Virus record (IMG/VR): IMGVR_UViG_3300021425_000084
Span: 1-37,498 of that record
DNA from: a virus
Strand: one strand, 5' to 3'
DNA: 37,498 nt
Part shown: positions 12,035 to 17,276 of the stretch, piece after piece
How positions within the stretch are numbered: position 1 is the first letter of the stretch
How the letters are laid out: each line of letters opens with the position of its first letter
The notes under the pieces: generated by a model
Databases searched by the model: none
Told to the model about the DNA's origin: nothing
What the model saw: the letters and a program-made list of their open reading frames with translations, nothing else
Position numbers and translations under genes: made by a program

Positions 12035-12291
12035 GCTTCCTCCTTTGCTGGTAGTTCTGGTAGTGGCATCCAGTGGGTCGGTTGATAGAATTGATCTATC
12101 TCAATATCTCCTGACCAATACACTCCATTATGCCAAAAGCTTCCGTAGGTGTTACCCCAGTACCACACTATGTCATCGCCAGAGTCGTCTTCTGCACGTC
12201 CACCAATCCAAGGGATATATGTGTTTGCGTTGTATAGCCAAACGATCTGGTCAATCTCAGGCAGTTCTTGTTCTATCGGTATCCAGTTCAT
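12031..12291 (-). CDS. DUF551-like small protein (86 aa)
   Basis: The pattern WIPIEQELPE, VWLYN, GGR, then YQPTHWMPLPELP matches the DUF551 family as I remember it: a small Trp-rich phage and prophage protein of unknown role. The start at 12291 is preferred because it overlaps the stop of the upstream gene as ATGA; an ATG four codons earlier also exists. Its C-terminus ends ELPAKEEA, encoded by the junction repeat shared with the next gene. Confidence 0.7.
   Translation of the reverse strand: MNWIPIEQELPEIDQIVWLYNANTYIPWIGGRAEDDSGDDIVWYWGNTYGSFWHNGVYWSGDIEIDQFYQPTHWMPLPELPAKEEA
12032..12057 (-). repeat. Junction repeat, copy at the 11810-12034 gene start
   Basis: Partner of 11811-11836. Three base differences: one is synonymous (Leu) and the other two change Ala to Ile. 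The ribosome site and overlapping stop/start are identical. Confidence 0.75.
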
Positions 12292-13112
12292 AGTTCTTTG
12301 CATTTCTCGGTTATCACTTGCTGCACATCAGGAGTCAACTCGCTCCAGGGTGTGTCCACTAAATCTGTGCGATTTGGGAACACCTTGAGGATTTCACTTC
12401 TGTTGGCAGGTTCAAAGTATTGTGGTTCAGGTTCGGTTGGTGTGACGTGTGCAGGTGTAGCTTCCAGTAGCTTCAGGAACTTATCCTCTTTTCCGTCACG
12501 AAGGATGTAGTCAATGTTAGCTTTCCACTTCCTGTCATTCTTGCCAGTCATAAAGTCATCCGCTTCTGTGTTTTTGAACACTTGGGCAAAGTCAGCAATG
12601 GTATAGCCTTGTTTTAGTCGCTGGCTTATCAGTTTCTTGCGTTGTTCGTTTAGGTTCCTGACTGGAGGTAAGGATGGACAGTGTTCATGGTACAGTTCCA
12701 GAATTTCAGTGTAAGGCATACCACCAGCCCCTTGAGGGGTTTGGGGTGTAGTAACAGTATCCTTATCTGTATCTGTATCCTTATCTGTATCTGTATCGGC
12801 TTTTTTGGGTTTGTTTGGGTTTCCCAAATAACCCACTGGGTTTTCTTGGGTTTTCTTGGGTCGTCCTCCCTTTCTTCCGTTTTCCCTATTCCGAATGACA
12901 GTATTGACATACGACTGGTGATCTCGCTCAAGTTGCATTCTTACTGGTTGAAACGCAACCATTGCCACAGGATCATCAAATTCAGGGTCACTCCCATTCA
13001 CGTAGGTTAAAATTGCTTTAAGTAGCTTTCCAGCTTGCTCATCCGTCATAACACCGACCACCCCTGCCATGTCATGGTAAAGCTGAAATACTTTTTTCCC
13101 ATTGATACTCAT
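12288..13112 (-). CDS. Replication initiator/loader-like protein with DUF6291-type N-terminus (274 aa)
   Basis: Residues 1-85 (HDMAGVVGVMTDEQAGKLLKAI...FQPVRMQLERD) resemble the DUF6291 domain found at the front of phage replication proteins. NRENGRKGGRPKK follows and then a low-complexity linker with repeated DTDTDKD. The C-terminal part contains FMTGKNDRKWKANIDYILRDGKEDKFLKLLE, split here as motifs FMTGKNDRKWKA and DYILRDG, which I associate with the C-terminal ends of phage replisome organisers. It lies two genes before DnaB in the same operon, which supports a role in helicase recruitment. A structured RNA lies 23 bases upstream of its start. Confidence 0.7.
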   Translation of the reverse strand: MSINGKKVFQLYHDMAGVVGVMTDEQAGKLLKAILTYVNGSDPEFDDPVAMVAFQPVRMQLERDHQSYVNTVIRNRENGRKGGRPKKTQENPVGYLGNPNKPKKADTDTDKDTDTDKDTVTTPQTPQGAGGMPYTEILELYHEHCPSLPPVRNLNEQRKKLISQRLKQGYTIADFAQVFKNTEADDFMTGKNDRKWKANIDYILRDGKEDKFLKLLEATPAHVTPTEPEPQYFEPANRSEILKVFPNRTDLVDTPWSELTPDVQQVITEKCKEL

Positions 13113-13134
13113 TATCTTAGTCCTCTAAAAAAAC

Positions 13135-13231
13135 ACCCAACCGAGGAGCGTGTGAGAAGCAGGCTGCAAATAGCCATCGCTCGACTCGGTTGGGTATGAT
13201 AAATATATTTTGCATTACAAGGGCTTCTCAC
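13135..13231 (-). ncRNA. Structured pseudoknot RNA element, copy A (5' leader)
   Basis: Minus-strand RNA with four helices. The outer stem of 11 pairs joins 13185-13195 to 13135-13145. A two-base bulge and an inner stem of 5 pairs (13178-13182 with 13146-13150) follow. A GGC/GCC hairpin (13162-13175) sits inside. A 9-pair pseudoknot joins GTGAGAAGC (minus strand, 13223-13231) to 13152-13160. A T7 run follows the outer stem, as in an intrinsic terminator, then the ribosome site and ATG of the gene at 13112. Copy B (14756-14849) has the same layout with compensatory helix changes. Function unknown: riboswitch-like leader, attenuator or ribozyme are possible. Confidence 0.75.
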
Positions 13232-13264
13232 GGCCAATTACAACACCTATAATGGTGCGGTATG

Positions 13265-13591
13265 CTACTTCGTCAAGACTACACCTTGCTCTTTCAAGTA
13301 TGCCAGCACGTCCACTCCAGTAACTTGCTGTATGTACCTTGCCTTTGCCGCCACATGGAGCATCTTCATCTTGTGCATGGAAAGCTTGATCTGCTGTTTC
13401 GTTGCGTTCTCTTTTGCTATGGTGCTTAGTGTCTTCATAAGTACTTCATTGCAACCTGCATCAGGTGCTCGTGGTTCGTGTGTATGGTTAGTATGATTGG
13501 TATTGTGTATATCATGGTAAAATTTAATAGCAGCAGGACTTAGGACTCTTCGGCTATTATGGGCCGTGTCTCGTTTCCGCACAACATCCAT
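13265..13591 (-). CDS. Hypothetical protein (108 aa)
   Basis: A basic, His-rich protein (NTNHTNHTH near residues 30-38) with a helical C-terminal half. No family recognised. It lies between the exonuclease and the initiator-like gene in the replication operon. Near its stop is TTGACG (complement of 13271-13276), which could be a -35 box for the RNA element that follows, though no firm -10 box is seen. Confidence 0.6.
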   Translation of the reverse strand: MDVVRKRDTAHNSRRVLSPAAIKFYHDIHNTNHTNHTHEPRAPDAGCNEVLMKTLSTIAKENATKQQIKLSMHKMKMLHVAAKARYIQQVTGVDVLAYLKEQGVVLTK

Positions 13592-13608
13592 ATCCTGCTG
13601 CTAAATTG

Positions 13609-14271
13609 TTAGAGGTTCAACATCCTCCGTGTGAGACTGTCAAGAATCTTCACATCGTTCAATGCGTAGTCGATTGCTTTCTCCCGTTCTTCAGGAGTTC
13701 CGTTAAAGAGCCGTGCGAAGTCGGCTCCAGTGACACCACTGGGTTTGCCAAAGCCGCACAGGAATCTGTTCACTGTGTCCATTTTGGTCATTTCCATGCG
13801 GTTGCCCATGTTCCAGAAGGTCATCAGGTCGATGATCTGACTGTGCGGATAACCTCTTTTGAGATCCCAGATATGTTGTGGCCAGGGTACACCAAGCATC
13901 ATTGCCCGTTTGAAGAGGAATGGGAAATCAAACTTAATGATATTCCAGCCAACAACGGGCCTTTGTGCCATTAACTGAACACTAATGCGGTCTAATGTCT
14001 CACTAATCAGACGCTTTTCAGATTCGTAGGTCAGCACCTCATGCACTGCTCCGTCAGTCAACCCGACTGCCAACACCTTCCCCGTAATTGGGGAAAGTGC
14101 AGCTTTGTCTAGGAATTCATCCTCTGCTTCAGCAAGCTTGGCCTCGATCTTGTTGGGATCTTTGAGGTTTCCAAGCTTTACTTCACTGCGAGAGAAGTAG
14201 GACAATGCGTTCTTGGTCGGCCCTGTTTCAATGTCCACGCCAAGGTATTTCGGTGTATGTGTGTTATTCAT
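13609..14271 (-). CDS. DEDDy 3'-5' exonuclease, DNA polymerase B proofreading-type (220 aa)
   Basis: Exo I is DIE (D13, E15), Exo II is GWNIIKFD (N110, D115) and Exo III is YALND (Y202, D206), the full DEDDy set of the RNase H-like exonuclease fold. The fold matches the PolB proofreading domain but stands alone without a polymerase, as in several phages. It should degrade DNA from 3' ends and probably acts with the ERF annealing protein in recombination or end processing. It overlaps the upstream HNH gene by four bases (ATGA), which would separate it from ERF if the HNH gene were a later insertion. Confidence 0.85.
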   Translation of the reverse strand: MNNTHTPKYLGVDIETGPTKNALSYFSRSEVKLGNLKDPNKIEAKLAEAEDEFLDKAALSPITGKVLAVGLTDGAVHEVLTYESEKRLISETLDRISVQLMAQRPVVGWNIIKFDFPFLFKRAMMLGVPWPQHIWDLKRGYPHSQIIDLMTFWNMGNRMEMTKMDTVNRFLCGFGKPSGVTGADFARLFNGTPEEREKAIDYALNDVKILDSLTRRMLNL

Positions 14272-14738
14272 AGTTTTTGTATTTGGTGGTTAGTATTATT
14301 GTCCATAATAAATTGATTCCTTGCTTCCAATGCAGCTTCTTTTGAAGGAAATCCCCATTTTTTTGTCCTCTTCCCGTTTACGGTAATGTCATAAAGCCAT
14401 GATGATCTTTGAAATCGCACTCCATTGATGCCAGAAGTGTTAGATTTTTGTTTACGTCTATTTTGTGACTGCACTGTGCGACTAACCCACCTACAATTCT
14501 CAGGACAATAGTTGCCTTCAACATTAAGGCGGTCTATCGTTAGTCTTTTTTTCCATCCATTATCCATAGCCCAATCATAAAACGCTTGAAATGATTCTAG
14601 CCATTCGTCACACATTGCAATACCTCTGCCTCCGTAGTATTGGTAATCATTTCGTCTTGGGTTAGTGCACCGTTGTTTCATGTTAAGCCAAGTTTTATAC
14701 AAAGGGTGATACCTAAGGCGGTGTAGTTCGTACTTCAT
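14268..14738 (-). CDS. HNH endonuclease with AP2-type DNA-binding domain (156 aa)
   Basis: Residues 1-95 hold the HNH nuclease pattern: RCTNPRRNDYQYYGGRGI, then LTIDRLNVEGNYCPENCRWV. This is the variant found in phage-encoded free-standing homing endonucleases. Residues 100-150 (SGINGVRFQRSSWLYDI...WGFPSKEAALEARNQFI) form an AP2 DNA-binding domain. The start at 14738 is chosen because GGAGGG lies just upstream; an upstream ATG falls inside the stem of RNA element B. The gene sits between ERF and the exonuclease and is probably mobile. Confidence 0.88.
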   Translation of the reverse strand: MKYELHRLRYHPLYKTWLNMKQRCTNPRRNDYQYYGGRGIAMCDEWLESFQAFYDWAMDNGWKKRLTIDRLNVEGNYCPENCRWVSRTVQSQNRRKQKSNTSGINGVRFQRSSWLYDITVNGKRTKKWGFPSKEAALEARNQFIMDNNTNHQIQKL

Positions 14739-14755
14739 TGGATTCCCTCCAAAAC

Positions 14756-14849
14756 CCATAAGCCCCGTAGAGAGGTGTCAGAACAGGCTTTACGCCATCC
14801 TCGATCTACAGGGCTTATGGAAAGTTGATAATTCATTTCGGGTTCTGAC
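14756..14849 (-). ncRNA. Structured pseudoknot RNA element, copy B (5' leader of the HNH gene)
   Basis: Same architecture as copy A. The outer stem of 16 pairs joins 14805-14820 to 14756-14771. It includes one U-G pair that exists only if the minus strand is the RNA; on the plus strand it would be an A-C mismatch. The inner stem is four pairs (14799-14802 with 14772-14775) after a two-base bulge. A GGC/GCC hairpin spans 14786-14796. An 8-pair pseudoknot joins GTCAGAAC (minus strand, 14842-14849) to 14777-14784. Unpaired joints match copy A. It ends 17 bases before the HNH start codon, with a run of four T before the ribosome site. Upstream, TTGACA overlaps the ERF stop codon (complement of 14886-14891). 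Confidence 0.75.
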
Positions 14850-14887
14850 TTCCGATAATTACTAGAATGCAGATAGGAAACCTAATG

Positions 14888-15493
14888 TCAAGATTTCTTC
14901 ACCTCCTTGGTGACTGTGTTCTTGGCAGCATACTCGTTAGCAGTTGCAATTAGCTTCTGTGGATCTCTGAGCCACGAAGACGGTAGTTCATGTACTCCCG
15001 CTATGATCGTACCCTTTGACGCTGCAAATGCGATTATGGCAGTCTCATGTGGCTTCAGGAGGTCAATGCGTCCTTGTAGCCCAGTGGCTGGATCTTGAGC
15101 AGGTTGAGTCTTGCTCGCCCCTTGTGAGGCACTGTTAGCGTCATCGTCTTCACCCGCAGGGCAAATGCCTGCCTTTAGTTGCCACAACCTACGTCTTGCG
15201 TAAGTCTCAGCACTCTTCTGCTGTTGTGGATTGCTTGGATCTTTACACACAAGGTCAATGATACATAGGTCGTCAACCTCTGCACTTTCAGCATGCAGGA
15301 GTTGTATTGAAACCGCTCCCTCTCTGCATCCTTCTTTTACGATGATGCCATGCTTTAGAAAGACTGGTTTTACCAAATCAATAATGTGATCCAGTGTTGC
15401 ATAGTCACTACGGAAGTGTCCGTTGACTGCGTTATTGCCTACGTTTGGCATCTCTTGATGCACTTTCAAAAGTGCTTTTGCTAGTTCTTTCAT
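14888..15493 (-). CDS. erf: ERF-family single-strand annealing protein (201 aa)
   Basis: The start MKELAKALLKVHQEM followed by NAVNGHFRSDYATLDHIIDLVKP is the ERF signature, and the block AETYARRRLWQLKAGICPAGEDDDAN matches the family's conserved centre (usually Y.RRY.L...LGI). The C-terminal 60 residues are less conserved. ERF proteins anneal complementary single strands for recombination, and here the SSB-like protein is next upstream, with exonuclease and RuvC nearby. It fits phage-directed recombination and genome circularisation. Confidence 0.9.
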   Translation of the reverse strand: MKELAKALLKVHQEMPNVGNNAVNGHFRSDYATLDHIIDLVKPVFLKHGIIVKEGCREGAVSIQLLHAESAEVDDLCIIDLVCKDPSNPQQQKSAETYARRRLWQLKAGICPAGEDDDANSASQGASKTQPAQDPATGLQGRIDLLKPHETAIIAFAASKGTIIAGVHELPSSWLRDPQKLIATANEYAAKNTVTKEVKKS

Positions 15494-16973: not shown

Positions 16974-17276
16974 TTAATAAGTACAACAACCACAGCATGG
17001 AGCGTCTTCGCATCGTCCCGCTGGATTGCGGAAACCCACAAAACCACTTGATGGTATGTAGAGAGTCCCAGGAACAGTACGGACCGCATGCATAGCAGCA
17101 GCATGGGCATCATCATTGCCAGTATAGCAATCAGGTTCTATTTCCTCCTGGCATGCATTGCATGTCACATAGAACCGCTTCCTACGGCCCGACTGGTAGG
17201 AGTGAAGATATCCACGCCCAGATTGAACTATTGTCCCGCAATTGGTGCAGCTTCCTTTGTATTTATTCTTTCTCAT
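16974..17276 (-). CDS. Cysteine-rich zinc-ribbon protein (100 aa)
   Basis: The N-terminal CTNCGT and CNACQE pairs (about residues 10-15 and 39-44) form a zinc ribbon. The C-terminus is again Cys-rich (CEDAPCCGCCTY). The middle is Gly/His/Ala-rich. The start overlaps the stop of the upstream gene by one base (TAATG). Small zinc-ribbon proteins of this type are common in phage early regions; the role is unknown. Confidence 0.65.
   Translation of the reverse strand: MRKNKYKGSCTNCGTIVQSGRGYLHSYQSGRRKRFYVTCNACQEEIEPDCYTGNDDAHAAAMHAVRTVPGTLYIPSSGFVGFRNPAGRCEDAPCCGCCTY

Follow-up and report, generated by a model that had tools for sequence, protein, structure and literature searches.

Among described systems, those closest to the locus studied here fall into four groups. 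HDV-like (drz) and theta ribozymes follow the order P1-P2-P3-P1′-P2′ with a short P3 and a G starting P1, occur in phages and include minimal forms without P4; HDV-like ribozymes are defined by P1.1 and by J4/2, with its catalytic cytosine, between P1′ and P2′ (PMC10879173). The T4 gene 32 operator is a simple pseudoknot of roughly 28 nt before the SSB gene itself, followed by UUAAA/UAAA repeats and the ribosome-binding site (RBS), and its structure stays while its sequence diverges (PMC535899). Leaders of mobile homing endonuclease genes of phages (I-TevI, segB, mobE and seg43(25)) also hold stable structures, which are simple hairpins that mostly lie over the RBS, with the stem of seg43(25) immediately upstream of the RBS and not covering it (PMC2988022). 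Intrinsic terminators and attenuators place a GC-rich stem with a short loop (3-8 nt) directly before a U-run. In the literature searched, we found no description of a pseudoknotted leader of phage endonucleases.

We analysed a viral DNA of 37,498 nucleotides (IMG/VR record IMGVR_UViG_3300021425_000084, here called the window), for which an earlier note had claimed a two-copy pseudoknotted RNA with compensatory changes. All strands, joints and coordinates given for its two elements, A and B, could be located (Table 1), both on the minus strand, which is the gene strand. In A, a linker joins the P1 5′ strand to P2a, an AT joint lies between P2b and P3, a single T between P3 and P1′ (minus strand) and one A between P1′ and P2b′ (CGCTC), and TG separates P2a′ from the T-run; B has the same strand order. 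As had also been noted, the elements stand just upstream of the start codons at 13112 and 14738 (the HNH frame has a further ATG at 14759; the SD-preceded start is 14738), with T7 after the stem of A and only T4 after that of B.

Table 1 Features of the two elements and their genes in the window, and the related contigs
Feature	Position	Strand	Basis or remark
Replication-initiation gene behind A (DUF6291 / O-like, DnaD-like)	12288..13112	-	Annotation
A, putative RNA, predicted +1 to T7 end	13127..13241	-	Block identical between window and L221; R1 match
A T7 run past stem	13127..13133	-	Sequence; start-region run comparison
A P2b′ CGCTC and P2a′ CTCGGTTGGG (P2a′ 13145-13136)	13136..13150	-	Sequence and A-D alignment
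A P1′, P1 3′ pseudoknot strand GCTTCTCAC	13152..13160	-	Sequence and A-D alignment
A P3 hairpin, GGC-8 nt-GCC	13162..13175	-	Sequence and A-D alignment
A P2b 5′ strand GAGCG	13178..13182	-	Sequence and A-D alignment
A TC bulge, 5′ of P2b	13183-13184	-	Sequence
A P2a 5′ strand CCCAACCGAG	13185..13194	-	Sequence and A-D alignment
A P1 5′ pseudoknot strand GTGAGAAGC	13223..13231	-	Sequence and A-D alignment
CTTGAC box, -35-like, unit A	13272..13277	-	Fixed distance to P1
HNH endonuclease gene behind B, mobile cassette	14268..14738	-	phrog_374, 1.3e-51
B, putative RNA, predicted +1 to T4	14751..14856	-	One pair-preserving change against L221; R1 match
B P2b′ and P2a′ 3′ strands	14756..14775	-	Sequence and A-D alignment
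B P1′, P1 3′ pseudoknot strand GTTCTGAC	14777..14784	-	Sequence and A-D alignment
B P3 hairpin, GGC-5 nt-GCC	14786..14796	-	Sequence and A-D alignment
B P2b 5′ strand GAGG, 4 bp	14799..14802	-	Sequence and A-D alignment
B TC bulge, 5′ of P2b	14803-14804	-	Sequence
B P2a 5′ strand, 16 bp, one U-G	14805..14820	-	Sequence and wobble check
B P1 5′ pseudoknot strand GTCAGAAC	14842..14849	-	Sequence and A-D alignment
CTTGAC box, unit B, 5′ edge of inserted HNH cassette	14887..14892	-	Empty site in L220 and L221
Related contig 3300022187_000156 (L220)			Carries C and D
Related contig 3300025653_000333			Carries C and D; same phage as L220
Related contig 3300005611_000258 (L221)			Carries A and B

Folded without the pseudoknot, A and B are each 3 standard deviations better than shuffles, which is true of either strand. 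The RNA model R1 matches A at 13136-13200 (43.8 bits) and B at 14762-14818 (27.3 bits), and a terminator scan placed a terminator-like site at the 3′ end of A (13151-13133). The descriptor gives extension scores of 9 for A and 12 for B, both within one window; when it was run on 60 dinucleotide shuffles of the window as a chance control, a score of at least 9 arose in one of them (best 10), so that one shuffle equalled A and none equalled B. Two other candidates were rejected: a conserved small ORF across the RNA, which on inspection is open in A and D and closed in B and C, and an HNH-linked guide RNA of the omega-RNA type, as the HNH protein has only 156 amino acids and A is not adjacent to HNH.

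Protein searches with the replication-initiation (rep), exonuclease and SSB genes led to three related contigs, each of which carries exactly two elements (3/3, model R1 and a descriptor script). Two of them hold further versions, C and D, which are identical between the two contigs together with their flanks. C sits at the place of A, ahead of a related rep gene, and D stands ahead of another HNH gene. The outer stems of C and D have almost nothing in common in sequence with those of A and B, and their P1, P2 and P3 strands were found by a descriptor free of sequence constraints. This confirms the two-copy RNA and adds to it two divergent versions from a related phage.

To compare the four versions we used an ungapped alignment, in which N letters pad length differences and were placed by hand to suit the fold. 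Its 27 pairs amount to 103 scorable cells, all of which (103/103) hold standard pairs, which bears out the claim that the outer stems differ and still pair. Both-sided changes occur in 16 of the 27 pairs, against 6.8 expected by shuffling (P1 5/9, P2 10/15, P3 1/3; none of these values was reached by shuffles). Sliding the strands by 1-3 columns lowers pairing to 37-54%, a contrast that is inflated because the alignment was fitted to the structure. The U-G pair of B had been said to exist only on the gene strand, and the wobbles there are indeed all G-U (one in B, two in B of L221, two in C and one in D), with no A-C. Since shape is kept while sequence changes, the element is almost certainly a real control element.

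The conserved unpaired positions of A-D are a U-Y bulge, AU before P3 and U after it; GAG/CUC is kept at the foot of P2b, and an A (U in C) after P1′. P1 starts with G-U-S-A, preceded by GG and followed by CC. This concentration at helix junctions suggests a specific tertiary fold, whereas the scarcity of invariant unpaired bases argues against a large ligand pocket; none is evident, which is a point against the attenuator favoured below. The P1 helices have energies of -13.5 (A), -10.2 (B), -10.9 (C) and -7.3 (D) kcal/mol and their strands are orthogonal, with self pairing at -7 to -13.5 kcal/mol and cross pairing mostly at -1 to -5. GG and CC flank the P1 5′ strand in all four versions and could close a hairpin around it, plausibly in B and C and weakly in A and D. 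Both copies in a given phage share the letters of the two-base bulge, which are TC in two phages and TT in the third (C and D, L220), as if the bulge tracked the phage.

The strand order, the short P3 and a P1 that begins with G in all versions recall a self-cleaving ribozyme of HDV-like topology that would cut ahead of P1; the earlier note had likened the strand order to an HDV-like fold. The order stands and the rest does not: a single nucleotide (A, A, U and A in A-D) separates P1′ from P2b′, leaving no space for P1.1 or for J4/2 with its catalytic cytosine, P4 is absent, and an extra P2b with its two-base bulge lies between P2a and P3. Unlike these ribozymes, the elements stand before start codons and not beside tRNAs (the whole window holds no tRNA), and no HDV-like match in Rfam appears up to E 10. 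We reject this reading on anatomy, and self-cleavage seems highly improbable.

The RNA is preserved more strictly than its surroundings. A is identical between the window and L221 and a single change, which preserves its pair, sets the two copies of B apart, whereas the promoter regions and downstream genes around both have diverged and other matching stretches are mostly 5-27% different. The identical block of A runs from TAATTGG to the T-run between diverged flanks, and the conserved block of B ends at the SD. The blocks would fit tight constraint on the entire RNA as well as a recent exchange of it. As the relatives are few and closely related, the four versions may stem from few independent events.

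Each unit consists of a CTTGAC box, about 40 nt, the pseudoknot RNA, a U-run and a start codon. In 6/6 contexts, P1 is preceded by TTGAC at a distance of 42-46 nt, and the genes that end there differ; the background frequencies in a 5-position window are 0.0057 (TTGAC) and 0.0014 (CTTGAC), and matches to a -10 or TATAAT-like box are weak (2-4/6 at spacings 14-19). Counting 36 nt from TTGAC puts the predicted +1 at ~13241 and ~14856, which coincides with the start of the window-L221 identical block in both A and B. An identical block between diverged flanks, together with a mobile cassette, is what exchange would leave if the element acted as DNA, either as a folded single strand or as a boundary sequence for recombination between phages. 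That is very unlikely, however, because the one-strand G-U pairs, the fixed place before start codons, the U-run and the block start at the predicted +1 favour RNA, and a pseudoknot is of no advantage in duplex DNA. The same unit of promoter-like box, compact RNA and U-run would also make a complete small-RNA gene (promoter, structured RNA of 115 nt and terminator) whose product acts in trans, with the downstream gene merely its neighbour. We consider this improbable, as every context has the element on the strand of its gene and just ahead of the start codon, which is at most about 25 nt from the U-run even though the genes differ, an arrangement that a free-standing RNA gene does not need.

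The window's minus-strand DNA-metabolism operon encodes a RuvC-like resolvase, a DUF3127 SSB-like protein, an ERF annealing protein, the HNH endonuclease, an exonuclease, the replication-initiation protein and a DnaB helicase. There are two element contexts, with A and C ahead of the replication-initiation gene and B and D ahead of the HNH gene. Whereas A and C remain at the rep locus, where the genes behind A in L221 are unrelated to those of the window, the HNH cassette and its leader lie between ERF and exonuclease in the window (14268-14892), between the resolvase region and SSB in L221 (7390-8000) and at a third place in L220 (13300-14060). The HNH proteins behind B in the window and L221 are only 48% identical. 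Since in L220 and L221 the ERF stop overlaps the exonuclease start at this position, forming an empty site, the window by this comparison carries an insertion of the HNH cassette with its 5′ edge at CTTGAC. In L221, the cassette truncates a small ORF. At the rep locus, the genes that follow leader A are unrelated (13112 in the window; 10480 onwards in L221), a module having been cleanly exchanged immediately past the U-run. Within the rep gene, 12749-12892 holds short direct repeats (an 18-bp unit GTATCCTTATCTGTATCT and 10-bp units), and at the nucleotide level this region matches Vibrio, Aeromonas, Pseudoalteromonas and gut phages at 74-87%, although the proteins are <50% identical. The repeats may mark an origin inside the gene or may be no more than low-complexity coding sequence.

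An RNA carried by mobile cassettes, with P1 at its predicted 5′ end and little conservation of unpaired bases, could insulate by its structure or stabilise the 5′ end, and so free the expression of an inserted cassette from its surroundings without regulating it. Such a role seems unlikely, as it rarely requires a sequence-identical block that includes the linker, or conserved joints in four divergent versions. We instead favour, tentatively and with somewhat less than even confidence, a 5′ leader RNA that acts in cis on the genes of phage cassettes and is most probably an attenuator organised by the pseudoknot. The cis-leader reading draws on the compensatory changes in all helices including P1, on strand and position before the start codon in every context, on TTGAC at its fixed distance with +1 at the block start, on a preserved RNA ahead of unrelated rep genes (A) and diverged HNH proteins (B), and on the HNH cassette and leader at three sites that are empty in relatives. 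Attenuation of transcription is pointed to by a stem that adjoins a U-run before a start codon in four versions. The T-runs directly after P2 (7/8 in A, 4 in B, 6 in C and 6 in D) are longer than most in the start regions of this phage, where runs are mostly 1-3 and those of at least 6 are rare, which favours the attenuator. One other start codon, at 17276 (minus strand), is preceded by T6 and shows no match to the RNA model.

In the proposed cassette, a promoter-like box, a pseudoknotted leader of ~115 nt, a U-run, an RBS and the gene follow one another, and transcription would begin 7-11 nt ahead of P1. P3 would fold first and then P1, and because P1′ is made before P2′, the pseudoknot could form first and hold the loop compact. 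P1 formation would draw together the strands of the long stem P2, which would close directly ahead of the U-run as an attenuator and limit readthrough into the gene; P1 held open, by a bound factor or, in B, by the U-run competing for its 5′ strand, would raise expression. Like intrinsic terminators, the element places a GC-rich stem directly before a U-run ahead of a gene. Unlike in them, P2 encloses a loop of 30-45 nt with the P3 hairpin and the P1′ strand, which counts against attenuation, as do the B U-run of only 4 and the weak -10 box. Nor is any antiterminator pairing common to all versions: the P1 5′ strand pairs with the region starting GGGUUUU strongly in B (-14.7 kcal/mol), moderately in A (-10.5) and weakly in D (-6.7), and such pairing is absent in C, where the best alternative is no better than in shuffled sequence. 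It reaches the RBS in B only.

Translational control, either gp32-like or by structure beside the RBS as in seg43(25), is the main and a serious rival to attenuation. The pseudoknot might be bound by a protein of the phage, such as its SSB, or of the host, which would spread over the U-rich region and SD and repress the gene, as T4 gp32 does on its own mRNA. The layout would suit this, with a phage pseudoknot at the 5′ side of the leader and then a less structured stretch with U-rich sequence, SD and AUG (compare PMC535899). The operon encodes a DUF3127/SSB-like protein, gp32 operators likewise hold structure as sequence diverges (PMC535899), and the bulge (TC in A and B, TT in C and D) differs by phage, as it could if a binder had co-evolved with it, although this pattern rests on only two phage groups. 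However, gp32 acts on its own gene whereas the genes here are rep and HNH, the element is a compound fold of 100 nt, and a U-run and SD follow it with no UUAAA repeats. We regard such an operator as rather doubtful. As in homing endonuclease leaders, a stable structure precedes a mobile endonuclease gene, and its position resembles that of seg43(25) (PMC2988022), but it is a pseudoknot shared with a replication gene; RBS occlusion of the I-TevI type does not apply, since the SD lies 3′ of P2 and outside it.

No named family had been recognised before, and Rfam 15 gives 0 matches at the gathering score over the window and only chance-level matches for 12900-15000. The pattern TCGAG-GATGGC-GCCTG returned only chance matches among the matches listed, and GAGCGATGGC-GCC-ACACGCTC with the TCGAG and TTGAG forms gave, beyond the three known contigs, chance matches without stems. 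A pattern scan of genome contigs had no match, 80 HNH loci from viral contigs (the known ones included) and 16 from genomes held no further element, and blastn of the elements against phages and plasmids found nothing or one short chance match. R1 on 1480 genomes of four phyla yielded one weak 36-nt match (21.7 bits) that we judge to be chance; the large genome searches used strict filters, at which weak matches are lost. The earlier note would have been weakened by a model search without further homologues; in the contigs and genomes covered here homologues exist, confined to close relatives of this phage, and by these searches the RNA family is new and narrow, in a group of marine-type phages.

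In each phage, two unrelated genes have as their leader a compound pseudoknot fold from one RNA family, which covaries strongly and is absent from Rfam. It is possible, though doubtful, that these phages hold a portable RNA control module of a new class, in which a pseudoknot leader with its own promoter sits on unrelated genes including a mobile endonuclease and would switch them as the pseudoknot competes with an alternative pairing of the P1 5′ strand to the U-run and SD, sensed by a phage or host factor. The family makes testable how mobile endonuclease cassettes and phage replication genes carry their own expression control, and its four natural versions with orthogonal pseudoknot strands are ready-made compensatory mutants.
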